Assembly: GCA_945787425.1 (NCBI GenBank)
Contig: CALZHO010000018.1
Location: 1-11,027 of the forward strand
Reading direction: 5' to 3'
Origin: an uncultured Bacteroidales bacterium
Lineage (GTDB): Bacteria; Bacteroidota; Bacteroidia; Bacteroidales; Paludibacteraceae
Length of the DNA: 11,027 nt
The position numbers were made by a program, and so were the translations under genes. The notes under the pieces were generated by a model. That model saw only the letters and a list, made by a program, of their open reading frames with translations, had not been told where the DNA came from and did no database searches. Every line of letters starts with the position of its first letter. The stretch's first letter is position 1. Positions 1 to 11,027 of this stretch are shown in pieces.

Positions 1-373
1 CATGGATATAGAGCAGACTGGGGGCGTCGTAATCCACTTTGATCGTAGCTGGCACGCGTAGCATATAGTCTTTGGCATACGCCACCGCTTCTGGTGTGGC
101 ATCGCGCAATACCTCCAACATATACTCGGACTTACCGACCGTAGCACCCAACGCAATCGCGATAGGCAATCCCGTCATGCCCGTGTTGGGAATACCCACT
201 GCCAAGGCGTTCTTATAGACATTCTTTGACAGATAAACTGTTATCTCGTCTGGCTCTACGCCTAATAGTTCTTTAGCGCGTGCCACGCACAATGCCACGG
301 CAATCGGTTCTGTACAACCGATTGCAGGGATGACCTCTGAGCGGAGCAGATGAAGGAGTTCGGAGTTAGTCAT
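1..373 (-). CDS. cyuA: L-cysteine desulfidase, CyuA/UPF0597 (YhaM) family, N-terminal part only
   Basis: The first 124 codons of a gene that continues beyond the left edge; full-length members are roughly 430 residues. The family breaks L-cysteine down to pyruvate, ammonia and sulfide in the cytoplasm using a [4Fe-4S] cluster. The assignment rests on the family hallmark VIPAIGCTEPIAVAL at residues 14-28, whose Cys20 is the expected cluster ligand. It is supported by the following pattern SKNVYKN (49-55), IPNTGMTGLP (61-70) and IAIALGATVG (71-80). The ATG at 371-373 overlaps the end of the GT2 gene by 8 bp, which suggests translational coupling. Its biochemical role is unrelated to the glycosyltransferases upstream. 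The related iron-sulfur L-serine dehydratase alpha subunit is the main alternative name, but the GCTEP motif favours CyuA. The C-terminal cluster-binding cysteines cannot be checked because they lie outside the window. Confidence 0.85.
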   Translation of the reverse strand, partial: MTNSELLHLLRSEVIPAIGCTEPIAVALCVARAKELLGVEPDEITVYLSKNVYKNALAVGIPNTGMTGLPIAIALGATVGKSEYMLEVLRDATPEAVAYAKDYMLRVPATIKVDYDAPSLLYIH

Positions 374-1097
374 ATCGTTTGAAGTGGAATTTTAGTCGGA
401 TGATAGTTAATAATACAATACACCAATGCTTGAATGTGGAGACATGGCGTAGTCGTTGTTGCAAAATATGGAAAAGTTGTTCCTCCTTTGTGCGATTGCG
501 TTTGGCAGTCGTAGAAAGGGGATTATATGTATAGTTATAGCCCGTATAGGGAACCTGAACGTATGTGGGATTGGTCTCCCAAAAATCCAATGAGAAAACC
601 ACATCCTCGTAAATCATTCCTTCGGGGAAAGTAAGAGCATATTGCGTGAAAATGCTGCTACGATACAATCGCATACACGGCGAAGTGAACTGATAGAAAT
701 AGCGAGGAAGTTTCTGCTCCATGATACAACCATCTGTGCCTACGCGCCTATAACCAATTTGCACGCAATCGTAGTTGGTAATATATGGTAGAAGGGTTTC
801 GTAGAAATCGTTGTCCAGATAGTCATCTGCATCTACGAATGAAATGTACTCACCTGTGGCATGTTGCAATCCGTTGTTGCGTGCGGCGCCTTGTCCTTGA
901 TTAGATTGTGTATGAATCTCAATACGAGTGTCTCGCTGGGCGAAATCTTGCGCTATGGATAGGCTGCTATCAGTAGAACCATCGTTGATGAGCAGGATTT
1001 GCAGATCGCGATATGTCTGGTGTATGATGGACTCAAGACACTGTGCCAAGTATTTCTCGGCATTGTAGATGGGTACTATGACGCTTATTTTTGCCAT
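366..1097 (-). CDS. Family 2 glycosyltransferase (GT-A fold)
   Basis: 243-aa cytoplasmic or membrane-associated glycosyltransferase that would transfer a sugar from a nucleotide-sugar donor onto a surface glycan; donor and acceptor cannot be read from sequence. The N-terminus SVIVPIYNAEKYL (5-17) is the classic GT2 opening. It is followed by NDGS (38-41), which helps bind the nucleotide, and DADD (89-92), which holds the DXD metal site. A later ED pair (164-165) sits where the catalytic base is expected. A hydrophobic, basic C-terminal stretch (about 225-240) may contact the membrane. I start at the ATG at 1097: the frame stays open upstream to 1205, but that extension lies inside the GT4 gene and lacks family similarity. 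The start overlaps the GT4 stop by 13 bp and the end overlaps the cyuA start by 8 bp. With the GT4 and deacetylase genes it forms a small glycan-assembly block. Confidence 0.9.
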   Translation of the reverse strand: MAKISVIVPIYNAEKYLAQCLESIIHQTYRDLQILLINDGSTDSSLSIAQDFAQRDTRIEIHTQSNQGQGAARNNGLQHATGEYISFVDADDYLDNDFYETLLPYITNYDCVQIGYRRVGTDGCIMEQKLPRYFYQFTSPCMRLYRSSIFTQYALTFPEGMIYEDVVFSLDFWETNPTYVQVPYTGYNYTYNPLSTTAKRNRTKEEQLFHILQQRLRHVSTFKHWCIVLLTIIRLKFHFKRYD

Positions 1098-2203
1098 GTC
1101 TGTACGCAATAGGTGAATAGTTGTTCGAATTGCTGGGCTTGTTTCTCGCGTGAGAACTGCTCTTTGTTGATTACCGCTTGGCGAGTAAAGCCATTTTGCT
1201 GCCATTCGTGGTATTTCTCAAGGATAAATGCTTTTATCTCATTGATTTCGGATGATGCTATTCCAGCGTTGGTTTGGTGGATCGTTTGTGCCAATAATCC
1301 ATTGTCGGAAGGAATGCAGAGTATGGGCTTCTCACAACCGAATGCTTCAAAAAACTTAGTAGTCATCATGCCTCTGGCATAGGGATTAGTCAGTACCAAA
1401 GCCATACTGCTACGGCGTAGTTCATCACCTACCTGATTCAGTGGAATAGGTTGGTAATCAGGAGTATGGATGTTCAATTCTACATTAGGCAGATTCAGTT
1501 CGCGAACGGCTTGCTCAATGAGTGCTGTGCTTTGGAATTCGTAGATTCGCCCAATGTATGATATACGGAAAGTGTCGGTAGGAATATCTTTGGCATAGAA
1601 TTGTGTAGGGTCGTATCCGTTGTAAATAAGATGTACGTTGCTATTGTATTGGCGGATAAAATCCACATGCCATGGCGATACTGTGGTTACAGCATTGGCC
1701 TTGCTTAGCACATGGTTGCGGCGGCGGATATTCACCCACTTGTACCAATGGCTAAATGGCTTTGCCCACCATTGGCGGTGGCTCTGGTATTGAGCGCCAG
1801 GCACTTGCTCATCCAAGTCGCGAATGTCGGTGATGAGGGGAATATTCTTTTCACGAGCGATGTCGTATGCGGCTCTCAGTGGGAAGGTGGAGAATGTTGT
1901 GCAGAAAACCATGTCAAAGTCCTGCTCCTTCACTTGCTCTTTCACCCATTGCGAGAACTGCCGATTACGCCAGTCCGTGAGCAATGACCATAGTGATTGC
2001 CATGCCCACTGCCACGTGTTGTGGTAGGCGATAGGTTTTTCTATAATCGGATAAGAATGTGGAAAATCAAACGGCTGAAACTGCTCCGTATATACAGCAA
2101 TCTGATGTCCCTGCCTCATGAGATAGTTGCACAAATAGCGCAGTCTCGGTGCGAATGAGGGTCTGCCAAAAGGGTCTGCTAATATGAGGATATTCAGTTT
2201 CAT
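1085..2203 (-). CDS. Family 4 glycosyltransferase (GT-B fold)
   Basis: 372-aa glycosyltransferase, probably acting on an envelope polysaccharide at the cytoplasmic face of the inner membrane; substrate unknown. The N-terminal Rossmann half begins NILILADPFGRPSFAPRLRY (4-23), with the glycine-poor donor loop typical of Bacteroidota GT4 enzymes. The C-terminal half contains ISYIGRIYEF (214-223) and the nucleotide-sugar-binding segment TTKFFEAFGCEKPILCIP (281-298), in which Glu286 matches the conserved glutamate of GT4 enzymes. A tryptophan-rich helix (64-86) could associate with membrane or acceptor lipid. I choose the ATG at 2203 because MKLNILIL is the usual beginning of the fold. The frame can be extended five codons to a TTG at 2218, but that would overlap the deacetylase stop and adds nothing conserved. 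The gap to the upstream gene is 11 bp, and the end overlaps the GT2 gene by 13 bp. Confidence 0.9.
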   Translation of the reverse strand: MKLNILILADPFGRPSFAPRLRYLCNYLMRQGHQIAVYTEQFQPFDFPHSYPIIEKPIAYHNTWQWAWQSLWSLLTDWRNRQFSQWVKEQVKEQDFDMVFCTTFSTFPLRAAYDIAREKNIPLITDIRDLDEQVPGAQYQSHRQWWAKPFSHWYKWVNIRRRNHVLSKANAVTTVSPWHVDFIRQYNSNVHLIYNGYDPTQFYAKDIPTDTFRISYIGRIYEFQSTALIEQAVRELNLPNVELNIHTPDYQPIPLNQVGDELRRSSMALVLTNPYARGMMTTKFFEAFGCEKPILCIPSDNGLLAQTIHQTNAGIASSEINEIKAFILEKYHEWQQNGFTRQAVINKEQFSREKQAQQFEQLFTYCVQTWQK

Positions 2204-2214
2204 TGCAGTGTCAA

Positions 2215-3447
2215 TCAATTCTCTACTAACATTTCCAGCAATTTAGGATATAAACTGCTATGGTATATGTTGCCTGTAGGGTTGCTGTTGTGCCAGAGTA
2301 GTACCACTTCGCCAGCGTTCTGATGCACTTTGTCAAACAATCGCTGACACTCGAAATATGCCTCATCCTCGCTGAGATTCATATAGTTACTGTTGCTCAG
2401 TGTGCAGTCCATGACTGTCAGTGGATGCAACGCTAAATCAGTGATTTGCATTGTCTTAGGATTAATCCAGCGCACAGGTCGTGTGGTCTGCAAACGGAAT
2501 CCTACTTGATCAGGGAACATCATCGTGAAGTCATCGGTTATGCCCATGTTTACCAACATTTGCATGTCATCTATTGAGCAACGAAGATAATGACTACGGT
2601 GGTACAAGTCCTTAATTTTTATAATATCTCCCTCCCTAACACTCTCTTTGTTCACCATATGTGTGAATACCACCACATTGGTCATCTTTCCACCATAGTA
2701 ACTCGAATGTAACCCAATCTTGGCACCGCTGTTTACTATCAACTGTTCTGCGGTTTCAAAATCTTTACCATCCAATTTGTATTGAGGATAATCGTACCCT
2801 TTGCCTTCTGTATCTTTGATAAAGTAAATACATTTAGCCCCTGCCACTTTCTTATCTTGCGCAATCAGCCATGAAAAGGTAAAAGCAGGGTCGTTGTGAA
2901 GATTCTTCAGCGAAGCCATCACTTTGCGCCATTGACCGCGCATGATGCCTCCTATCGCTCCGCGCCAATGGCGGTAATGGGCAACCGTATCTATATCGTG
3001 CGTCAAATAGATTTTGCTAAACGATGGGGTAGGCAATGGCAAATCCAACAGTTTCATCAGCATGCGCGCATACTCGTCCACCGTAGGAATCATCAGACGG
3101 TTATTCTGACCCAAAATCGAATACTTGGCCAAGAATCTTCCGTGCTCATCGCGCTGCGGGTTAATCAATTCCTCCGCCCGCGAAATAAAGAAGAAGGTAT
3201 TATAGACAATATCCGTGTGAATAATCCAAGTTGAATGTTCCGCGCCTTTCGCCTCTAATCTCTCGCCTTTCGCCTCACTAAGGTCGGGCAACACAATCTC
3301 TTTCCCCAACTGTCCATTAGGTACAATCACTACGCGGTAATGGCACCATTCTGCTTCATCAGCAGTATATCCTACTTGTTTGGCTGCATTTGCATTGCCG
3401 TACAGCAAGAATGTGATGATATATTCAATAATTTCGTCCATAATCAT
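2215..3447 (-). CDS. NodB-like polysaccharide deacetylase family protein
   Basis: 410-aa member of the Bacteroidota carbohydrate esterase 4-like proteins often found in surface-polysaccharide loci. The N-terminal ~140 residues form the variable leading domain and the remainder is the NodB-like barrel. Seen directly: THDID (149-153), which supplies the aspartates of the first deacetylase motif; GLHSSY (245-250), the histidine/serine metal motif; SHYLRCS (285-291); HPLTVMD (341-347); and LLWHNS (383-388). The motifs suggest removal of acyl groups from a glycan or glycolipid, but I cannot name the substrate. Two starts are possible: ATG 3447, which gives an ATGA overlap with the ABC-F stop, and ATG 3441 two codons later. 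Residues 57-69 (SEAKGERLEAKGA) are encoded by a short tandem repeat array and look like an insertion in a loop. Its position directly before GT4 and GT2 genes supports a glycan role. Confidence 0.8.
   Translation of the reverse strand: MIMDEIIEYIITFLLYGNANAAKQVGYTADEAEWCHYRVVIVPNGQLGKEIVLPDLSEAKGERLEAKGAEHSTWIIHTDIVYNTFFFISRAEELINPQRDEHGRFLAKYSILGQNNRLMIPTVDEYARMLMKLLDLPLPTPSFSKIYLTHDIDTVAHYRHWRGAIGGIMRGQWRKVMASLKNLHNDPAFTFSWLIAQDKKVAGAKCIYFIKDTEGKGYDYPQYKLDGKDFETAEQLIVNSGAKIGLHSSYYGGKMTNVVVFTHMVNKESVREGDIIKIKDLYHRSHYLRCSIDDMQMLVNMGITDDFTMMFPDQVGFRLQTTRPVRWINPKTMQITDLALHPLTVMDCTLSNSNYMNLSEDEAYFECQRLFDKVHQNAGEVVLLWHNSNPTGNIYHSSLYPKLLEMLVEN
3243..3274 (-). repeat. In-frame 7-nt tandem array inside the deacetylase gene
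   Basis: Read on the coding strand the units are GGCGAAA, GGCGAGA, GATTAGA, GGCGAAA, then a partial GGCGCG. They are translated as KGERLEAKG within residues 57-69 of the deacetylase. The same seven-residue pattern (KGERL, then K/E, V/A) is encoded by the longer array in rimO at 10585-10658, using related but different codons. No such low-complexity basic segment is expected at this point of the family, so it looks like an insertion. Confidence 0.8.
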
Positions 3448-5309
3448 TCTTCTTCGCTGAGTATTTCCCATTCGTAAAGGCGTTGTTCCATCTCGCGTTT
3501 GATATGCTCATAGCGTTGGAAATTCTCCGCCGTTTGTTGCGCTACATCTGTCAGCAGTGCTTCTATCTCTTGTTGTTCTTCTTCCAACTTCGCAATAGCT
3601 GCTTCCACATCGGCAATCTGTTTCTCTTTCTTGCGACGCGCTGCAGCGGCGGCTTTCTGTGCTGCATAATCCAACTTCGCAGAAGAACTCTCGCCTTTCG
3701 CCTCATCGCCTTTTCGCCTCATCGCTTCATCGCTCTTCCTCTCCAACTCCTGCAACGAGTCTATCCTTTTGCTGCGCAAGAAATCATAGATCCCGCCAAT
3801 GTGTTCTTTCACTTTACCACCACCAAACTCATACACCTTGTCCACCAGTCCGTCCAAGAAATCGCGGTCGTGGCTCACGCAGATCACGGTACCATTAAAC
3901 TCCTTCAATGCGGCTTTCAGCACATCCTTCGACTGCATATCAAGGTGGTTCGTGGGCTCATCAAGTATCAACAAGTTACATGGCTCCAGCAGCAAACGAA
4001 TCATCGCCAAACGACTTCTCTCGCCACCCGACAGCACTTTCACTTTCTTCTCCGAAGCCTCTCCTCCAAACATAAATGCACCCAAGATATTGCGTATCTG
4101 TGTGCGAATATCGCCCACCGCTACATTGTCAATCGTCTGGAATACAGTTAGTTCACCGTCCAACAATGCCGCTTGGTTCTGCGCAAAGTACCCAATCTTC
4201 ACGTTGTGTCCAATCTTCAGCATACCCATATAATCCAACTGCCCCATGATACAACGCACCAGTGTCGTCTTGCCTTCGCCGTTCTTACCTACAAATGCCA
4301 CTTTCTCGCCTCTGCGAATAGTGAAGGTCACATCTTGAAATACCGTATGCTCGCCAAAATCTTTGCGCAAATCTTCCACTATCACAGGGAAGTCGCCGCT
4401 GCGTGGTGCTGGCGGAAAACGCAAACTCAGTCGCGAGTTGTCCTCCAAATCCACCTCTAATCGCTCCAGTTTCTCCAGCTGCTTGATGCGCGACTGCACC
4501 TGCACCGCTTTGGTGGCCTTGTATCGGAAACGCTCAATAAACTCCTCTGTCTCTTGAATCATCTTCTGCTGATTCATATAGGCACGCACTTGCTGTTCGT
4601 GTCGCTCTTGGCGCAGTACCTTGAATTGCGAGTAGGAGGCGTTATAGTCGTATATCCTACCGAGCGTAATCTCAATCGTTCGAGTCGTCACATTGTCCAA
4701 AAAAGCGCGGTCGTGGCTCACTAATACCAACGCACTACCGTTGTTCTTGAGGAACTCCTCCAGCCATTGTATGGACTCTATGTCGAGGTGGTTGGTTGGC
4801 TCATCAAGGAGTAGTAGGTCAGGGTGTTGCAAGAGTATCTTCGCCAACTCTATACGCATACGCCATCCACCCGAGAACTCCGAACAAGGACGATCAAAAT
4901 CCTTCCTTTCAAATCCCAAACCGATAATAGTCCTATCCATCTCCGCGATAAAACGTGCCTCCTCGCCTGATATTCCTGCCTCTAAACTGTAGGCGCTTGC
5001 GCCGTTCTGTAGCGAAGCGTTTTCTAAAATATTGCTCTGAGCGATGACCCCCATCACATCCTCTCTCAGCGTCTTCCCGTCCACATGCATCATCACTTGT
5101 GGTAAGTAACCGATGGTCAGGTCGCCCATCTTGCTGATGCGACCCGATGTGGGAGTTTCCACTCCTGCCAACAATCGAAGCAGAGTCGTCTTACCCGCGC
5201 CGTTCTTGCCTACCAACGCCACTCTGTCGCGCGGGTTAATCAAAAAAGTAATATCGTCCAATATCGGACGCGACGAGTATTCTATGCTGAGATGTTCTAC
5301 GCTTATCAT
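3444..5309 (-). CDS. ABC-F family ATP-binding cassette protein (Uup/EttA-like, cytoplasmic)
   Basis: 621-aa soluble protein with two ATPase cassettes and no membrane segment. ABC-F proteins of this build act on the ribosome: they rescue or regulate stalled translation, and some protect against antibiotics. Cassette 1: Walker A GKNGAGKTT (34-42), signature FSGGWRMR (145-152), Walker B LLLLDEPTNHLD (165-176), SHD (198-200). The charged inter-cassette linker lies around 225-290, including FRYKATKAVQVQSRIKQLEK (261-280). Cassette 2: Walker A GKNGEGKTT (341-349), signature LSGGERSRL (426-434), Walker B LLILDEPTNHLD (446-457). A C-terminal coiled coil (about 550-612) resembles the Uup/YfmR-type tail. 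Both cassettes look catalytically intact. Residues 525-540 come from a tandem repeat array located between cassette 2 and the coiled coil. The ATG overlaps the uvrA stop as ATGA. A resistance role cannot be claimed from sequence. Confidence 0.92.
   Translation of the reverse strand: MISVEHLSIEYSSRPILDDITFLINPRDRVALVGKNGAGKTTLLRLLAGVETPTSGRISKMGDLTIGYLPQVMMHVDGKTLREDVMGVIAQSNILENASLQNGASAYSLEAGISGEEARFIAEMDRTIIGLGFERKDFDRPCSEFSGGWRMRIELAKILLQHPDLLLLDEPTNHLDIESIQWLEEFLKNNGSALVLVSHDRAFLDNVTTRTIEITLGRIYDYNASYSQFKVLRQERHEQQVRAYMNQQKMIQETEEFIERFRYKATKAVQVQSRIKQLEKLERLEVDLEDNSRLSLRFPPAPRSGDFPVIVEDLRKDFGEHTVFQDVTFTIRRGEKVAFVGKNGEGKTTLVRCIMGQLDYMGMLKIGHNVKIGYFAQNQAALLDGELTVFQTIDNVAVGDIRTQIRNILGAFMFGGEASEKKVKVLSGGERSRLAMIRLLLEPCNLLILDEPTNHLDMQSKDVLKAALKEFNGTVICVSHDRDFLDGLVDKVYEFGGGKVKEHIGGIYDFLRSKRIDSLQELERKSDEAMRRKGDEAKGESSSAKLDYAAQKAAAAARRKKEKQIADVEAAIAKLEEEQQEIEALLTDVAQQTAENFQRYEHIKREMEQRLYEWEILSEEE
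3688..3734 (-). repeat. In-frame 7/8-nt tandem array inside the ABC-F gene
   Basis: Coding-strand units are AGCGATGA twice, GGCGAAAA, GGCGATGA, GGCGAAA, GGCGAGAG. They encode SDEAMRRKGDEAKGE (residues 526-540), a hinge between the second ATPase cassette and the C-terminal coiled coil. Three identical GGCGATGA units in this register would read CGA-TGA and stop. The unit in that phase is GGCGAAAA instead, giving Arg-Lys. Confidence 0.85.
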
Positions 5310-8233
5310 ATAAAACTGTCTTTCAATTCGTTTAATGCTCTACCTGTATAACTATCCGCACACTCCATAATCTGCTCTGGCGTGCCTTCAGCCACTATCC
5401 TTCCTCCTTCATCGCCTCCCTCTGGTCCTAAATCTATAATATGGTCGGCTGCCAATATCACCGATGGATTATGCTCAATCACCAATACCGAGTGCCCTCT
5501 GCTAATCAACGCATTCAGAGCTTTCAACAGCACTGCCACGTCGTGGTGATGTAATCCCGTGGTGGGCTCATCGAAGATAAAGAGGGTAGGTGTTGCATTC
5601 TCTTGTGCCAAGAACGAGGCCAACTTCACGCGCTGACTCTCCCCACCTGACAAGGTACTACCTGATTGACCCAACTTCACATACCCTATACCTACATCCT
5701 GCAACGGACGCAACCTGTTGACAATCTTCTTACATGCCAAATCTTCGGAGAAGAATTCAATCGCCTGATTAACTGTCATCTCCAGCACATCGTAAATGCT
5801 CTTGTCGCGATACAGCACGTCCAGTACATCCTGCTTGAAGCGTTTACCCTTGCAGTGCTCGCACTCCAACACCACATCCGCCATAAACTGCATCTCAATC
5901 CGTATCGTTCCTTCACCTTGGCAGGCTTCGCACCTACCGCCTGGCGTGTTAAACGAGAAATGCGATGGCGTGAAGCCCATCTGTTTGCTCAATGGCTGCT
6001 CGGCATACAATTTGCGTATCTCGTCGTATGCTTTCAGATAGGTCACTGGGTTCGAACGCGACGATTTGGTTAATGGATTTTGATCCACAAACTCCACGTT
6101 ATGAATCAGTTGCAGACTACCTCTCAGACTGCCGAAGTCGCCCGTTCGTTCGGCTATACCGCCATAATGTTTCTTCAGCGCAGGGTAAAGTACCTTCGTA
6201 ATCAGCGATGATTTGCCGCTACCGCTCACACCCGTCACCACAGTCATTACATTCAGCGGGAAGCGAACATTGATATTCTTCAAATTGTTTTCTGTCGCAC
6301 CGATAACCTCTATATAGTTATTCCATTGGCGTCTATAAGGCGGAATAGAGTAGGTGAATTTCTCTATTTTCGGTGCGCCCGCATATACCAGTTCGCCGCC
6401 ATGGCGACCTGCTTTCGGACCAATCTCTATCGAATAATCCGCGGCTTTCTGTATCTCATCATCGTGCTCCACTACCACTATCGTATTGCCCAAATCGCGC
6501 AACTGCTTCAGCACATGTATCAGCCGTTGTGTATCCCTTGGATGCAAACCGATACTGGGTTCGTCCAATACGTACAACGAACCTACCAGACTACTACCCA
6601 GCGACTTAGCCAGATTGATTCGCTGTCCCTCGCCACCCGACAATGTGTTAGACATACGGCTGAGTGTCAAATACCCCAAGCCAACATCCTGCATAAACTG
6701 AAGCCGCGAACGAATCTCTGTTAAAAGAGGCTCAAAAGAAGAGAGATTTCCATCACCTCCCGTAGGGACAGCACTTTGCTCATCGGGCGACACTACGGCT
6801 GCTGTGTAGTCTTTAAACCATTCCGCTAACTGCGTAATCGGCATTTGACTAAGCTCCGTAATCGACTTTCCGCCTACCAGCACATACTCCGCCTCTTTCT
6901 TCAATCGCTTGCCAAGGCAGTCTGGACATATCGCCTTTCCGCGATAGCGACTGAGCATAACGCGATACTGTATCTTTGCGTATTGTTTGCTCTCCAATTC
7001 GTGGAAAAAGTCATTCAATCCGTGAAAATGTTCATTGCCAATCCACAGCAACTGCTTCTGTTCTGCTGTCAGTTCGTAGTAGGGCGTATGTATTGGAAAG
7101 TCAAACTTATCCGCTGCATAAATCAGTGCTTCGTTCCACAGACCCATTTTCTCGCCTTTCCAACATGCTATCGCTCCTTCGTATATCGTTTTCGTCTTGT
7201 CTGGAACGACCAAGTCGGGGTCTATACCAATTACATTGCCGTATCCACCGCAGGTAGGACAAGCTCCCAATGGACTATTGAAGTCAAACAGGTGCTCCGT
7301 CGGTTCCATAAACGTAATCCCGTCTGCCTCAAAGCGTTGCGAGAAGGTAATAATCTTAGATTCTCTTCCATCTTCAGGCGAAGCCGATCTACAGCCCGTA
7401 GGGCAATCGTCAGCGCAGCGATCTATATTTGGTCTCTCTATCACCAACTTGCACACCCCTTTTCCCTCAAAGAACGCTGTCTGCACTGAGTCTGCAAATC
7501 GGTTCAGCGTACTCTCTTCCCCATCGGTTATGACACGGTCAACCAGCAGATAGGTCAAATTTTCCTTCTCGGCAAGCGCAATGTTGGCACGTGCAGGTGT
7601 TGTTGAATGTGGTTCTTTATGTTGTTGGATGAAAATATCTCCGTTGTTTGTCAGCACTTGATTCAGTCGCAGCACTTCCCCTGTTCCATCTTCCTTGAAT
7701 TGGTACAAACGAGCAAAGCCCTGTTGCTGCCAAATACCCAATTGTTCCTCTATATTCTCCGCTACAATAGGCGACAATAGAAGCACTTTTGTCCCTGTCG
7801 GTTGTTTTCTTAGACACTCCACCACGTCATGTATGCTATGGCGTTTCACTTCCATTCCGCTCACAGGCGAGATGGTCTTGCCTGCTCGAGCAAAGAGCAG
7901 TTTGAGATACTCGTGTATCTCCGTCACCGTCCCCACGGTGCTTCGCGGGTTACGGTTGGTCACTTTCTGCTCAATGGCTATGGCTGGAGGTATGCCCTCT
8001 ATGAAGTCCACATCGGGTTTCTGCATACGTCCAAGGAACTGCCGTGCATACGAACTCAGACTCTCTACATAACGCCGTTGACCTTCGGCAAACAATGTGT
8101 CGAAGGCCAATGAAGACTTACCGCTACCGCTGACACCCGAGATAACGACCAACTTGTTGCGTGGAATATCTACGGTTATGTCTTTCAGATTATGCGTCCG
8201 TGCCCTGTGAATATGTATTACATCTTCGTTCAA
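5306..8233 (-). CDS. uvrA: UvrABC system protein A (excinuclease ABC subunit A)
   Basis: 975-aa DNA-damage sensor of nucleotide excision repair. The dimer loads UvrB onto lesions using two ABC ATPase modules. Visible elements: Walker A1 GVSGSGKSS (33-41); CPTCGG (325-330); CPDCLGKRLKKEA (436-448); signature LSGGEGQR (531-538) with LDEPSIGLH (556-564); Walker A2 GVSGSGKSS (668-676); C-terminal zinc finger C768/C771 and C791/C794; signature LSGGESQR (861-868) with FDEPTTGLH (887-895). The first CxxC of zinc module 1 is replaced by RFEADG (300-305), which I believe is usual in Bacteroidota. It is slightly longer than the usual ~940-950 residues because of two insertions (about 271-292 and 480-500). 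The only workable start is a TTG at 8233: an in-frame TAA lies five codons upstream and the next Met is residue 70. Its stop overlaps the ABC-F start (ATGA). Confidence 0.97.
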   Translation of the reverse strand: MNEDVIHIHRARTHNLKDITVDIPRNKLVVISGVSGSGKSSLAFDTLFAEGQRRYVESLSSYARQFLGRMQKPDVDFIEGIPPAIAIEQKVTNRNPRSTVGTVTEIHEYLKLLFARAGKTISPVSGMEVKRHSIHDVVECLRKQPTGTKVLLLSPIVAENIEEQLGIWQQQGFARLYQFKEDGTGEVLRLNQVLTNNGDIFIQQHKEPHSTTPARANIALAEKENLTYLLVDRVITDGEESTLNRFADSVQTAFFEGKGVCKLVIERPNIDRCADDCPTGCRSASPEDGRESKIITFSQRFEADGITFMEPTEHLFDFNSPLGACPTCGGYGNVIGIDPDLVVPDKTKTIYEGAIACWKGEKMGLWNEALIYAADKFDFPIHTPYYELTAEQKQLLWIGNEHFHGLNDFFHELESKQYAKIQYRVMLSRYRGKAICPDCLGKRLKKEAEYVLVGGKSITELSQMPITQLAEWFKDYTAAVVSPDEQSAVPTGGDGNLSSFEPLLTEIRSRLQFMQDVGLGYLTLSRMSNTLSGGEGQRINLAKSLGSSLVGSLYVLDEPSIGLHPRDTQRLIHVLKQLRDLGNTIVVVEHDDEIQKAADYSIEIGPKAGRHGGELVYAGAPKIEKFTYSIPPYRRQWNNYIEVIGATENNLKNINVRFPLNVMTVVTGVSGSGKSSLITKVLYPALKKHYGGIAERTGDFGSLRGSLQLIHNVEFVDQNPLTKSSRSNPVTYLKAYDEIRKLYAEQPLSKQMGFTPSHFSFNTPGGRCEACQGEGTIRIEMQFMADVVLECEHCKGKRFKQDVLDVLYRDKSIYDVLEMTVNQAIEFFSEDLACKKIVNRLRPLQDVGIGYVKLGQSGSTLSGGESQRVKLASFLAQENATPTLFIFDEPTTGLHHHDVAVLLKALNALISRGHSVLVIEHNPSVILAADHIIDLGPEGGDEGGRIVAEGTPEQIMECADSYTGRALNELKDSFI
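6734..6796 (-). other. Non-conserved insertion in uvrA containing a CCCGTAGGG hairpin
   Basis: Codes for residues about 480-500 of UvrA (VVSPDEQSAVPTGGDGNLSS), where homologues as I recall them have a shorter helical link before the LLTEIRSRLQF segment. At 6758-6768 the DNA reads TCCC-GTA-GGGA, a 4-bp stem with a 3-nt loop. The core CCCGTAGGG is shared with the other uvrA insertion and is read in the same frame, giving Pro-Thr-Gly both times. The insertion call depends on remembered family sequences, not an alignment. Confidence 0.45.
7358..7423 (-). other. Cysteine-rich insertion in uvrA made of short hairpins
   Basis: Codes for residues 271-292 of UvrA (DRCADDCPTGCRSASPEDGR plus two more), directly before FSQRFEADG. 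The DNA carries GGC-GAA-GCC (7377-7385), GCCC-GTA-GGGC (7394-7404) and CGC-A-GCG near 7414-7420. It also has a direct repeat CGATCTA at 7385-7391 and 7419-7425. This modular make-up, and the absence of a matching segment in UvrA sequences I remember, suggest an inserted element that happens to remain in frame. Confidence 0.5.
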
Positions 8234-8247
8234 ATATTCTTGCCTTT
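8231..8247 (-). promoter_or_regulatory. Probable translation start region of uvrA, with ribosome-binding bases supplied by the repeat array
   Basis: The uvrA start is a TTG at 8231-8233. Nine bases upstream is AAAGG (plus-strand CCTTT, 8243-8247), which is the last complete piece of the tandem array. It is the only Shine-Dalgarno-like stretch in range. Bacteroidota depend weakly on such sites, so its functional weight is uncertain, but the array now occupies the initiation region of a DNA repair gene. Confidence 0.4.
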
Positions 8248-8265
8248 AACCTTTAGCCTTTAACC
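8241..8265 (-). repeat. Intergenic 7-nt tandem array between the HU/LysM-like gene and uvrA
   Basis: Coding-strand units are GGTTAAA, GGCTAAA, GGTTAAA and a partial GGCA. The first G is also the last base of the upstream gene's TAG stop codon. All units are of the TTAAA/CTAAA kind, and the 25 bp contain a stop codon in every one of the six frames, unlike the arrays inside genes. It fills most of the 31-bp gap, which is the only gap of more than 11 bp in the window. Confidence 0.85.
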
Positions 8266-9356
8266 TACTTCTTCAAGTACTCCACCGCCAAACTATCCAC
8301 CAACGCTTTCAGTTCTGGGTTGTACAGATTGCGATACTCCTCGCTCAGCTCGGGGATACGAATCACCTGACCCTCACGCACATGTGCAGGATGTTTAATG
8401 AGGTCTCTATTCGCTTCGTAGATAAACACCCACAAGTCTTTTTGCGCATAATACTTGTACGCTATCCATGCCAATCGACTATCTTTCCCAACTCGCTCTA
8501 TACCAATGAAATTCACATACTCGCGTGGTTTCTCTGCCAATGTCAGTTCTTTCACCTCTTCCACTTCTTCAACTGCTAAAACTTCTTTCACTTCCTCCGT
8601 AATGGGTTGACAGTCTTTCATGCATTGCCACCATTGTATCAATGTCGCACGGAAATACACGCCCGTTCCCACGATACCGAATAGCAACAGTACACCAATC
8701 ACCCAGCACACCCATTTGTGGCACTTGCATGTTGGTTTTGCGATAGGTTCTGCGATAGGTTCTGCTTCTTCTGTAGGCTCCTCTGTAACTGCTTCCACAG
8801 GTTCCTCTGTTGGCTCCTCTTTAGGTTCTGGCATAGGTTCTATCGCTGGCTCTTCAATAGCTTCTTCTGCCTTCTCCTCTGGAACCTCTGGAACTTCTGG
8901 AACCTCTGGAACTTCTGGAACTTCTTCAACCTCCAAACTTGGTTTGGATACCGCTTGTCCTAATTCCGCTAAGATATCCACGATTTCATCGGCTTGTTCA
9001 CCCAGTTTGCGCATAGGGTCTGGATTGATTTCTGCCATCACGGCTTCTGTTATGGGCTGTTCCAAACGTTTTTCCACGCTCTCCTTGAGCATAGATTCTG
9101 CACTGAAGGTCAGTTTGTTGTATCCTTCAATCGTAAAGGTTTCGCCTGTGGCAATATTCACGCTTTTACGAGGTGCTACTGATTTGAGTGAAAAAGTTCC
9201 AATCCCTTTGATTTTCACTTGCTTATCTTCTTTCAAACCCTCTACTAATGCATCCAAAAGGGCATTGAGAAACTGTCCTGTTTCTTGTTCTGTCAGGTTG
9301 GCGGCTTGAGCTACTGCTTTGCGTAGTTCTACCCATGTCAGTTTATCATTAGCCAT
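8265..9356 (-). CDS. Membrane-anchored HU-family DNA-binding protein with a C-terminal LysM-like domain
   Basis: 363-aa protein with a striking layout. Residues 1-95 are an HU domain, with GIGTFSLKSVAPRKSVNIAT (51-70) covering the conserved core and DNA-gripping arm. Residues 140-207 are an acidic, Pro/Glu-rich linker with five VPE repeats. Residues 217-236 are a single hydrophobic membrane segment preceded by basic residues (KCHK), which predicts the HU end in the cytoplasm. A second acidic stretch spans 253-275. Residues 284-336 resemble a LysM-type fold: GKDSRLAWIAYKYY, then FIYEANRD, ending REGQVIRIPEL. LysM domains bind peptidoglycan, so the inferred role is a tether between the nucleoid and the cell wall. 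Cysteines cluster on both sides of the membrane (210, 212, 217; 245, 249). The ATG is 3 bp after the stop of a plain HU gene, a possible dimer partner. The LysM assignment is by pattern only. Confidence 0.82.
   Translation of the reverse strand: MANDKLTWVELRKAVAQAANLTEQETGQFLNALLDALVEGLKEDKQVKIKGIGTFSLKSVAPRKSVNIATGETFTIEGYNKLTFSAESMLKESVEKRLEQPITEAVMAEINPDPMRKLGEQADEIVDILAELGQAVSKPSLEVEEVPEVPEVPEVPEVPEEKAEEAIEEPAIEPMPEPKEEPTEEPVEAVTEEPTEEAEPIAEPIAKPTCKCHKWVCWVIGVLLLFGIVGTGVYFRATLIQWWQCMKDCQPITEEVKEVLAVEEVEEVKELTLAEKPREYVNFIGIERVGKDSRLAWIAYKYYAQKDLWVFIYEANRDLIKHPAHVREGQVIRIPELSEEYRNLYNPELKALVDSLAVEYLKK
8739..8762 (-). repeat. Two 12-bp direct repeats in the linker of the HU/LysM-like gene
   Basis: The plus-strand unit TGCGATAGGTTC occurs twice back to back. 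It encodes the repeated EPIA at residues 199-206, just before the membrane segment. It looks like recent slippage or duplication that lengthened the linker. Confidence 0.7.
8878..8925 (-). repeat. 9-bp tandem repeats encoding VPE units in the HU/LysM-like gene
   Basis: Five copies of plus-strand GGAAC(C/T)TCT. The C and T versions alternate in the first four copies, so the array may have grown in 18-bp steps. It encodes the VPEVPEVPE run at residues 146-160. Nine-bp units keep the frame whatever the copy number, so linker length is likely to vary between strains. Confidence 0.9.
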
Positions 9357-9359
9357 ACT

Positions 9360-9638
9360 TTAGATGTTTTTGAGTTGTTCTTTAATGCTTTGATTGGGCT
9401 TGAAAGTCAATTGCATTTTCTCTGGGATAGTTGTGCGTTCTTTTGTTTGTGGGTGTACTACTACACGAGCGTTTTTGCGTTTCATCTCCAGCGTACCAAA
9501 GTTTTGCAATTGTACACTCTTCCCTGCAAGTAATTCTTTTTGCAACACGGCCACAGTTGCATTCAGCAACTCTTCCGTGTGTGTCTTAGTCATGGAAGTG
9601 CTTGTCGCAATGTGTTGGATTAGTTCTTTTGTTTTCAT
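9360..9638 (-). CDS. HU-family histone-like DNA-binding protein
   Basis: 92-aa nucleoid protein of normal HU/IHF length. HU dimers bend and compact DNA through two beta arms. Seen here: an N-terminal helical dimerisation part with KELIQHIATSTSMTKTHTEE (4-23), the core LQNFGTLEMKRKNARVVVHP (44-63) matching the usual GxGTF-R-x-R-NP region, and TIPEKMQLTFKPNQSIKEQL (70-89) for the closing strand and helix. The ATG at 9638 overlaps the rimO stop as ATGA, and the stop lies 3 bp before the next HU gene. This suggests co-translation of a free and a membrane-bound HU, which could form mixed dimers. Which named HU or IHF subunit it equals cannot be decided from the sequence. Confidence 0.93.
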   Translation of the reverse strand: MKTKELIQHIATSTSMTKTHTEELLNATVAVLQKELLAGKSVQLQNFGTLEMKRKNARVVVHPQTKERTTIPEKMQLTFKPNQSIKEQLKNI

Positions 9639-11005
9639 AATTGTGCATAGAGGTCAAAGTCCTCTGATTTTATGATAGTTACCTCGTAATATTCTCCAAT
9701 TTTCAATTGCCTCATCGCCTCATCGCCTTCTCGCCTCATCGCCTCCTTCTCTATCAGTACCTCGCAATCCACTTCGGGCGAGTCATACTGCGTGCGTCCG
9801 ACGTAATATTCCTCTTCCTCTCTGTCTATCACCACGCGTTGTCTCGTGCCCACCATTTGGCTCAATATCTCCGCTGAAATCGACTGTTGTATGGCCATTA
9901 GTGTGTCCACGCGACGCTCTTTTTCTTCTTGTGGAATATCATCTTTGTAGTGCTTTGCCGCGAATGTTCCTTCTTCTTCGCTGTATGCAAATGCCCCCAT
10001 GCGTTCAAACTTCATCTCCTTCACCCACTCGCACAACTCGTTGAAGTCTTCTTCCGTCTCTCCTGGATGTCCCACCAGCAGGGTTGTGCGGATGCATATC
10101 CCAGGCACCTCGCGGCGTATGCGCGCTATCACTGCATCTTGCTCCTCGCGGGTGATGTGACGATGCATTTTCTGCAGCATATTGTCCGAACAATGTTGCA
10201 GAGCAATGTCCATATACTTGCAGACATTCTTATGCTTCGCCATCACAGGTAGCAGGTCGTATGGGAAATCTGTAGGGTAGGTGTAGTGCAATCGTATCCA
10301 CTCCACGCCTTCAATCTGTGCCATCTCATCCACCAACTGTGCCAATCTATGTTCGCCGTAAAGGTCTAATCCGTAACTGGATAAGTCTTGTGCTATCACA
10401 TTAAACTCCTTCACACCTTGCTCCACCAACCATCGCACCTCATCCAATACATCCTCCATCTTTCGCGATGTGAATCGCCCCGTAATCAACGGTATCGCGC
10501 AATACGAACAGTACCTGTTACACCCCTCTGCAATCTTCAGATACGCATAATGCTTCGGCGTAGTTAGTGCCCGCTCATATCCCTCACCTTTCACCTTTAA
10601 CCTTTCACCTTTCACCTTTAACCTTTCACCTTTCACCTTTAACTTTTCACCTTTCACCTCCTCCACGATCCCCATGTAATCAAACTTCCCAAACCACTTA
10701 TCCACTTCTGGAATCTCCGCAGGTAGTTCTTCTCTGTAGCGTTGCGACAGACACCCCATGACGTACAACTTGCGCAGTTTGCCTTGCGTTTTTCGCTCCG
10801 CAAATTGCAGTATCATTTCTATGCTTTCTTCTTTGGCATCGCCGATGAATCCGCAGGTATTGATGATAGCTATCTCGCCTTTGGGATTAGCCGAATCGTG
10901 TACACAGCGATATCCCGCCAATTCCAATTGGCGCATCAATCGCTCTGCATCCACCAAGTTCTTCGAGCAACCCAATGTGATTATGTCTATCTCACCTTTT
11001 CTCAT
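9635..11005 (-). CDS. rimO: Ribosomal protein S12 methylthiotransferase (radical SAM)
   Basis: 456-aa enzyme that adds a methylthio group to an aspartate of ribosomal protein S12, using two iron-sulfur clusters. The N-terminal domain has its three cluster cysteines in LGCSKNLVDAE (C13), NTCGF (C51) and MGCLSQRY (C85). The radical SAM cluster motif is CNRYCSYC (C162, C166, C169). The C-terminal TRAM domain starts near 385 with GTRQRVVIDREEEEYYVGRT. I start at ATG 11005 (MRKGEIDIITLGCSK). ATG 11014 and TTG 11020 are in frame too, and the frame is open to the window edge. Two repeat-encoded insertions interrupt it: residues 116-141 between the N-terminal and radical SAM domains, and about 421-433 inside the TRAM domain. 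All catalytic cysteines are intact, so the enzyme is probably active. The stop overlaps the HU start (ATGA). Confidence 0.96.
   Translation of the reverse strand: MRKGEIDIITLGCSKNLVDAERLMRQLELAGYRCVHDSANPKGEIAIINTCGFIGDAKEESIEMILQFAERKTQGKLRKLYVMGCLSQRYREELPAEIPEVDKWFGKFDYMGIVEEVKGEKLKVKGERLKVKGERLKVKGEGYERALTTPKHYAYLKIAEGCNRYCSYCAIPLITGRFTSRKMEDVLDEVRWLVEQGVKEFNVIAQDLSSYGLDLYGEHRLAQLVDEMAQIEGVEWIRLHYTYPTDFPYDLLPVMAKHKNVCKYMDIALQHCSDNMLQKMHRHITREEQDAVIARIRREVPGICIRTTLLVGHPGETEEDFNELCEWVKEMKFERMGAFAYSEEEGTFAAKHYKDDIPQEEKERRVDTLMAIQQSISAEILSQMVGTRQRVVIDREEEEYYVGRTQYDSPEVDCEVLIEKEAMRREGDEAMRQLKIGEYYEVTIIKSEDFDLYAQL
9709..9743 (-). repeat. In-frame 8-nt tandem array in the TRAM-domain part of rimO
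   Basis: Coding-strand units are GGCGATGA, GGCGAGAA, GGCGATGA, GGCGATGA and a partial GGC. They encode EAMRREGDEAMRQ, placed between EVLIEK and LKIGEYY, where other RimO proteins as I recall have only a few residues. The unit in the phase that would create CGA-TGA is the variant GGCGAGAA, so the frame stays open. Confidence 0.85.
10585..10658 (-). repeat. In-frame 7-nt tandem array in the interdomain linker of rimO
   Basis: Ten 7-nt units plus GGTG, 74 bp. On the coding strand the order is GGTGAAA, GGTGAAA, AGTTAAA, then GGTGAAA, GGTGAAA, GGTTAAA twice more, and a final GGTGAAA. Three units make 21 bp and seven residues (GERLKVK), giving three near-perfect protein repeats. They lie between FDYMGIVEE and YERALTTPKHYAYLKI, in the linker that joins the methylthiotransferase and radical SAM domains. 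Confidence 0.95.
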
Positions 11006-11027
11006 ATCTTCCATCTTCAAGCGCAGC

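Follow-up and report, generated by a model that had tools for sequence, protein, structure and literature searches.

How one kind of short tandem repeat comes to stand in several unrelated genes is the question raised by an 11,027-nucleotide (nt) stretch of DNA from an uncultured Paludibacteraceae bacterium of the order Bacteroidales (assembly GCA_945787425.1, contig CALZHO010000018.1, positions 1-11027 of the contig, hereafter the window). A preliminary description of the window had reported five arrays of related 7- or 8-nt units, and all five were recovered at those sites on the minus strand, which also carries the main genes (Table 1). We consider it somewhat more likely than not (about 0.55) that such arrays are the recurrent product of a DNA-level process with a 7-8-nt step, followed by local spread and purifying selection. 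What carries this reading is their dispersal, period, size, placement, reading-frame filter and differences between species, all of which were demonstrated.

Four of the five arrays are far beyond chance. A self-match detector (score at least 11) finds four arrays in the window; second-order Markov shuffles of the window gave no array in 295 of 300 cases and one array in 5, and codon shuffles of five window genes gave none in 298 of 300 and one in 2. The fifth array (3243-3276) is degenerate, with a Tandem Repeats Finder score of 33, 66% matches and a self-match score of only 6. As the preliminary description had proposed, the genome (G000, an assembly of 1.34 Mb, 62% complete) and its relatives were searched for GGYKAAA units, strand, phase and gene context were tabulated, and coding arrays were compared with intergenic ones. 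Gene calls were simple open-frame calls rather than annotation, and G000 stretches were picked for their arrays, whereas 20-kb pieces of other genomes were not. The arrays proved genome-wide and dispersed: the two-unit GGYKAAA pattern gave 54 matches versus 1 for its reversed control, and GGCGADRA doublets 19 versus 0.

The three-unit GGYKAAA pattern was matched in 17 of 61 genomes, counting the window's own; the genus, with 37 genomes, supplied 15 of the 17. The reversed control of the pattern gave hits in 8 of the 61 genomes, though in much lower number. In the phylum as a whole, the pattern was present in 18 of 395 genomes (again with the window's own) and the control in 10, two of which carried more than 20 control matches each; these control matches may represent other heptamer words. 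GGYKAAA proper is thus mostly a feature of this genus, with scattered occurrences outside it. The likeness to KGERLKVKG-like runs in other Bacteroidales proteins, raised in the preliminary description, turned out to be correct: arrays encoding this peptide do occur there. One exact 23-mer of such arrays is also present in records titled as other phyla. At least 120 stretches in the genome collection contain it. Among the 80 titles listed, most were Bacteroidales, Bacteroidetes or Paludibacteraceae, 12 were Gamma- or Deltaproteobacteria, Wenzhouxiangella, Desulfobacterales, Syntrophorhabdaceae, Omnitrophota or Scalindua, and one was named only "bacterium". Thirteen loci of other or unnamed phyla carrying the 23-mer had G+C fractions from 0.37 to 0.66, and most held additional heptamer arrays, in part of other words; simple carry-over therefore appears improbable for several of them, with contamination of single bins possible. 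The viral contig L351 (1-14413) holds 13 heptamer arrays in 14.4 kb together with terminase, capsid-protease and tape-measure genes, and thus at least one phage bears arrays densely. On three viral contigs, PHROGs matches were obtained for 4 of 8 scanned open frames.

Among 13 genomes, period-7 self-match runs occurred at 2.5-25 per 100 kb in 12, with none in G028, and a first-order Markov control was close to zero. Period 7 was the commonest of eight periods tested in 11 of the 13; G027 has more runs at period 11. The 285 arrays fell into 114 unit classes out of 1172 possible, led by GGTGAAA (25), AAAAATT (23) and AAAATTG (18). The preliminary description had suggested an actively spreading sequence family filtered by selection where it lands in genes. 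Dispersal was borne out, and stop-making unit orders are indeed missing from genes, but there is not one spreading family: many period-7/8 unit families share the same genomes.

The arrays also have a preferred size. Four full units were found in 160 of the 285 (the mode, about 32 nt) and five in 29. Coding arrays peaked at 31-33 nt (61 of 142), and the intergenic peak was weaker (14 of 52 at 31-34 nt). At the lowest threshold, which admits chance doublets, 290 arrays had two full units, 123 three, 170 four and 31 five; this second peak at four departs from what simple geometric gain and loss of units would yield. G-quadruplexes do not explain the size rule. Units without GG or CC, hence without the G run per unit of G-quadruplex repeats, make up 192 of the 285 arrays, and 108 of these 192 have four units; as a general cause of the four-unit size, this candidate was rejected. 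In G000, coding arrays had looked enriched in 7n+2 lengths and the last unit in GGC; both impressions were dropped, the unit counts (21 of 43 sense coding arrays have four units, 12 have three) lending no support to a strict rule of n = 1 mod 3. Fixed array boundaries were dropped as well, start and end phases being uneven yet not fixed. Array density was 43.3 per 100 kb in intergenic and 6.1 in coding DNA of 12 genomes, with 66 of 206 arrays set aside as class "other". Occurrence at unrelated sites over chance, intergenic excess and preference for four units, all seen here, are the marks of dispersed heptanucleotide simple sequence repeats (SSRs).

Some arrays switch strand midway, which gives hairpins (L314 3882-4021, L322 421-537, L264 2863-2943, L211 3954-4080). 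Inverted pairs of neighbouring arrays amounted to 15 of 40 on viral contigs, 7 of 20 at loci of other phyla and 1 of 10 in the genus. In L122 of G015, two signal-peptide-like N-termini (11427-11505 and 12892-12970) carry a sense GGTGAAA array (KVKGERLKVKG) and then an antisense AAAATTG array (LSIFNFQFST).

Within genes, the order of unit variants follows the reading frame. The phase rule proposed for the window, by which each codon phase carries only units that avoid a stop, was correct for the listed units of its arrays, and the intergenic copy placed at 8241-8265 indeed has a stop in every one of the six frames. The shared orientation relative to transcription was seen within the window and failed elsewhere, coding GGYKARA arrays being 43 sense and 26 antisense. 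We tabulated these together with 28 intergenic arrays, all taken irrespective of unit order; set aside were the 61 of 158 arrays in class "other", any array that held the search pattern, and the 13 loci of other or unnamed phyla. In the 43 sense arrays, at the phase where T gives TAA, 62 units had G as their fourth base and none had T. At the phase where G could give TGA, 43 units had T, 2 had C and 4 had G, and these last four make no stop because their third base is C. At the free phase, 47 units had G, 15 had T and 2 had A (phase dependence, p = 6e-23). This rule is partly automatic, because an open frame cannot contain stops, and it thus shows selection filtering arrays rather than a mechanism ordering their units. 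As a sign of selection, unit order is in part tautological inside an open frame, and the well-supported evidence for filtering is the contrast with intergenic and antisense arrays: read in a random frame, the 28 intergenic arrays would be open in 12% of cases on the sense and 40% on the antisense strand, and G stood fourth in all units of 19 of 26 antisense gene arrays versus 2 of 43 sense ones.

The window arrays are not ancestral conserved parts of the proteins compared, as seen in a RimO alignment and in DNA alignments with relatives. Among 28 aligned RimO proteins of the genus (28 of 30 loci kept, L082 and L089 dropped), the linker holds differing sequence at the same place across species. 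The ten-unit rimO array is absent or replaced in relatives, and at the second rimO site G014 has a heptamer array of CGGAAAT-like units and G025 has units resembling GGCGAGA. For the ABC-F array and the one at 3243-3276, the comparison covered a single relative, G014, in which the first is shorter and the second has no counterpart. Three relatives were compared at the intergenic site, which is common to G025, with another unit order, and absent in G014 and G082. In the rimO linkers of G025 (L063) and G014 (L065), a palindromic segment splits what remains of a GGTTAAA array. The linkers of G031, G006 and G079 (L070, L078, L085) hold a longer, non-tandem insert encoding a related RTRAFAFPIRKRTFLSED-like peptide, which may be another dispersed in-frame element. 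Four RimO matches have one in-frame stop each (G063:C21:4346-5662, G066:C97:254-1561, G073:C12:36220-37581, G081:C95:3204-4499).

A closer comparison was possible between G030 and G085, which are 92.1% identical over 101 kb of common sequence; of G030 contigs, C2 alone aligns, and arrays without an orthologous site (45 of 69 in G030, 54 of 81 in G085) drop out. In G085, the sites orthologous to 24 G030 arrays held the same array in 9 cases (3 changed in length), an array of unrelated units in 7, a partly shared array in 3 and non-array sequence in 4, with a clean gap at the remaining one. From the G085 side, 27 arrays faced the same array in 11 cases (4 changed in length), unrelated units in 7, a partly shared array in none, non-array sequence in 4 and a gap in 5, one of these gaps (146627) resting on a doubtful alignment. 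At an octamer site in G085 (145423), the two species differ by three units beside one resident unit, through either gain or loss. In phase-variation repeats (contingency loci), copy number changes within a species and turns a gene on and off; each species here is represented by one genome, and copy-number changes were seen between species only. Among 67 hypervariable sites, arrays were present in both species at 10, in G030 only at 10, in G085 only at 13 and in neither at 34; with an array in at least one species at 33 of the 67 segments, arrays are part of much of the short linker change between the two.

We infer that arrays would be made repeatedly with a 7-8-nt step, most likely by replication slippage or template switching in gap or translesion synthesis. 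New arrays would survive at permissive spots, namely intergenic gaps, domain linkers and N-terminal segments, and a few unit words would become common in a genome through local copying. In genes, purifying selection would retain the unit orders and strand orientations that give an open frame and a tolerable peptide. Intergenic two-copy duplications outside arrays, compared with a third-order Markov expectation, numbered 38 versus 12 at period 7, 24 versus 4 at period 8 and 37 versus 36 at period 6. Several observations weigh against this origin. Two-copy duplications were also in excess at periods 9 (7 versus 1), 11 (9 versus 0) and 4 (660 versus 427), and some of them may be decayed arrays. 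Slippage alone accounts neither for one word at unrelated sites of a genome nor for the four-unit peak, and no array birth was directly observed. Loss of mismatch repair was rejected as a cause: MutS_I was matched in 56 of 61 genomes, including 26 of 26 good ones, and repair loss is therefore not needed.

It is unlikely that the writer is a Y-family polymerase (UmuC/DinB type) laying down four-unit arrays of about 32 nt during gap filling, with reading-frame selection picking among the products. If it were, bacteria and phages would own a built-in writer of linkers, signal-peptide cores and intergenic spacers. The association of this polymerase family with arrays is suggestive only. Among 60 genomes, the 13 in which PF00817 was not found had a median of 5.6 pattern matches per Mb and the 47 in which it was found 22.7 (p = 0.00038; p = 0.007 at 94% completeness or more), with p-values uncorrected for descent and two families already looked at by then. 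The reversed control of the composite pattern also counts real arrays, and both were summed for this test. No Y-family polymerase was found in the array-free G028 or in G011; that G011 is array-poor was predicted beforehand, and the composite pattern then gave 1 match and its control 0. Against the link, 7 of the 13 genomes without a PF00817 match nonetheless reach 5 or more pattern matches per Mb (37.6 in G022), and 6 of the 47 with a match have fewer than 5. The window's own genome, left out of the test at 62% completeness, has no PF00817 match and yet 36.6 pattern matches per Mb. Contrasts with the nearest relative, possible for 6 of the 13 non-match genomes, backed the link in 3, and it was dropped as proof. 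Of three Y-family proteins, two fitted Pol V UmuC best (330.5 and 356.6 bits, under the curated cut-off of 431), and the third matched DNA polymerase IV (426.9 bits, over the cut-off of 256).

Finished blocks might instead be copied from place to place, by ectopic gene conversion, microhomology-mediated insertion or an unseen mobile element, rather than made locally; we hold this to be possible, if doubtful. Word use is skewed by species, GGTGAAA forming 11 of 51 arrays in G015 and AAAAATT 15 of 66 in G085 versus 1 of 52 in its close relative G030, although the sampled stretches differ. A near-identical block of 30-34 nt recurs in several genes of G015, G030 and G085, and some sites carry an array in one species and none in another. 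The exact 23-mer in records of other phyla and the arrays in real phage DNA (L351) point the same way. However, inspection of the listings by eye, without a formal test of flanks or target-site duplications, revealed no conserved flank beyond the unit, and the G085 site at 145423 resembles gain or loss of units beside a resident one. MITE/REP-like mobile elements are marked by terminal inverted repeats and target-site duplications; among neighbouring array pairs of the genus, the inverted ones were 1 of 10.

That array sites are permanent and rewritten in place from word to word is unlikely. The unrelated-unit arrays facing each other at 7 of 24 G030-side and 7 of 27 G085-side sites, with 3 more partly shared on the G030 side and lengths sometimes equal (30/30, 27/27), would suit such rewriting. 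At the 67 hypervariable sites, however, co-occurrence exceeded independent landing only weakly (p = 0.10; p = 0.04 at a looser cut), and rewriting was dropped as a proven mechanism. That proteins keep the repeats as functional linkers or peptides, or that selection maintains them as regulatory sites, we find very unlikely: orthologues often have no array or a different sequence at the corresponding position, and the units occupy intergenic DNA as well. Within the first 35 residues, arrays are nonetheless more hydrophobic and more often antisense (10 antisense and 5 sense of 16, versus 17 and 44 of 70 elsewhere, the remainder having a purine bias too small to call; Fisher p = 0.007), so that some may serve in signal-peptide-like segments. 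Addition of heptamers by a reverse transcriptase that acts like telomerase on a short RNA template, a chemistry that DRT10 shows to exist in bacteria (PMC12632851), is highly improbable, because RVT_1, although matched in 5 of 16 genomes including the array-rich G015 and G030, had no match in the array-bearing G014 (98% complete) and the richly array-bearing G035 (97%), and the unit vocabulary inside one genome is very varied.

The window genes were identified by profile matches. RimO scored 441.9 bits with TIGR01125 (cut-off 356.95) and has domain matches at residues 12-111 (UPF0004) and 163-333 (radical-SAM). The ABC-F protein scored 474.5 bits with the ABC-F model (cut-off 380), with an ABC_tran_CTD match at residues 559-619 that stays under its cut-off. 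The VimE-like deacetylase reached 313.5 bits with NF053580, under the cut-off of 440, with DUF7033 at residues 84-168. A separate 9-nt repeat in the HU/LysM gene (8876-8933) encodes an EVPEVPEVP run; its period is a multiple of the codon and it lies outside the heptamer family.

Table 1. Repeat arrays and genes of the window
Feature	Position	Strand	Remarks
Ten-unit GGTGAAA/GGTTAAA-type array in rimO	10584..10659	minus	encodes VKGEKLKVKGERLKVKGERLKVKGE between UPF0004 and radical-SAM domains
Octamer array GGCGATGA/GGCGAGAA in rimO, TRAM-domain region	9709..9745	minus	TRAM_2 match at residues 390-460
Octamer array GGCGATGA/GGCGAAAA in ABC-F ATPase gene	3698..3734	minus	directly ahead of C-terminal domain match
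Degenerate four-unit GGCGARA/GATTAGA array near VimE-like deacetylase gene start	3243..3276	minus	
Intergenic GGTTAAA/GGCTAAA array, gap from HU/LysM gene to uvrA	8242..8266	minus	stops in six frames
Genes: two glycosyltransferase-like, VimE-like deacetylase, ABC-F ATPase, uvrA, HU/LysM protein, HU protein, rimO		minus	

Full-text word searches of open-licence literature returned no description of these arrays among the matches listed, and no mention of the KGERLKV peptide was found in such a search. Comparable repeats are known. Heptamer over-representation in bacteria was reported by 2007, with polymerase slippage over a 7-nt contact as a proposed cause (as cited in PMC4679880 and PMC4692102). 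As with the long heptanucleotide SSRs of Mrazek 2007 and the repeated heptanucleotides of cyanobacteria from a Calothrix report (both as cited in PMC4679880 and PMC4692102), 7 nt is the commonest class in most genomes and taxonomic spread is sporadic; unlike them, the present arrays comprise many unit families per genome, are common in genes, have their variants sorted by frame and differ strongly between close species. GGGAATC of Xanthomonas and GGGGAYT of Nostoc (PMC4692102) share dispersal, the preference for four units and the non-coding excess. Their four-unit preference was tied to G-quadruplexes, whereas here it holds in the 192 arrays without GG or CC. TAACTGA of Beggiatoaceae, Cyanobacteria and some Bacteroidetes (PMC4679880) is likewise a cross-phylum heptamer, and stops within the unit were noted there as limiting its placement. 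In the genome studied in that paper, most copies stand immediately ahead of start codons, and units that differ from it by one base seldom form repeats, whereas variants here mix within arrays and are sorted by frame. GGGACCG of Geobacter (PMC2700814) forms four heptamers at 49 intergenic and intragenic places, but is a single unit family proposed as a regulatory element. DRT10 (PMC12632851) also makes short tandem repeats of set period, yet needs a reverse transcriptase of the kind not found in the array-bearing G014 and G035. The arrays are thus an unusually rich case of a known, unexplained class of bacterial repeat, and one that lends itself to testing. Slippage was proposed earlier for bacterial heptamer repeats, and this genus offers a test case: its arrays number in the hundreds, closely related species can be paired, and some relatives are poor in arrays, so that period, size, birth and loss can be measured.

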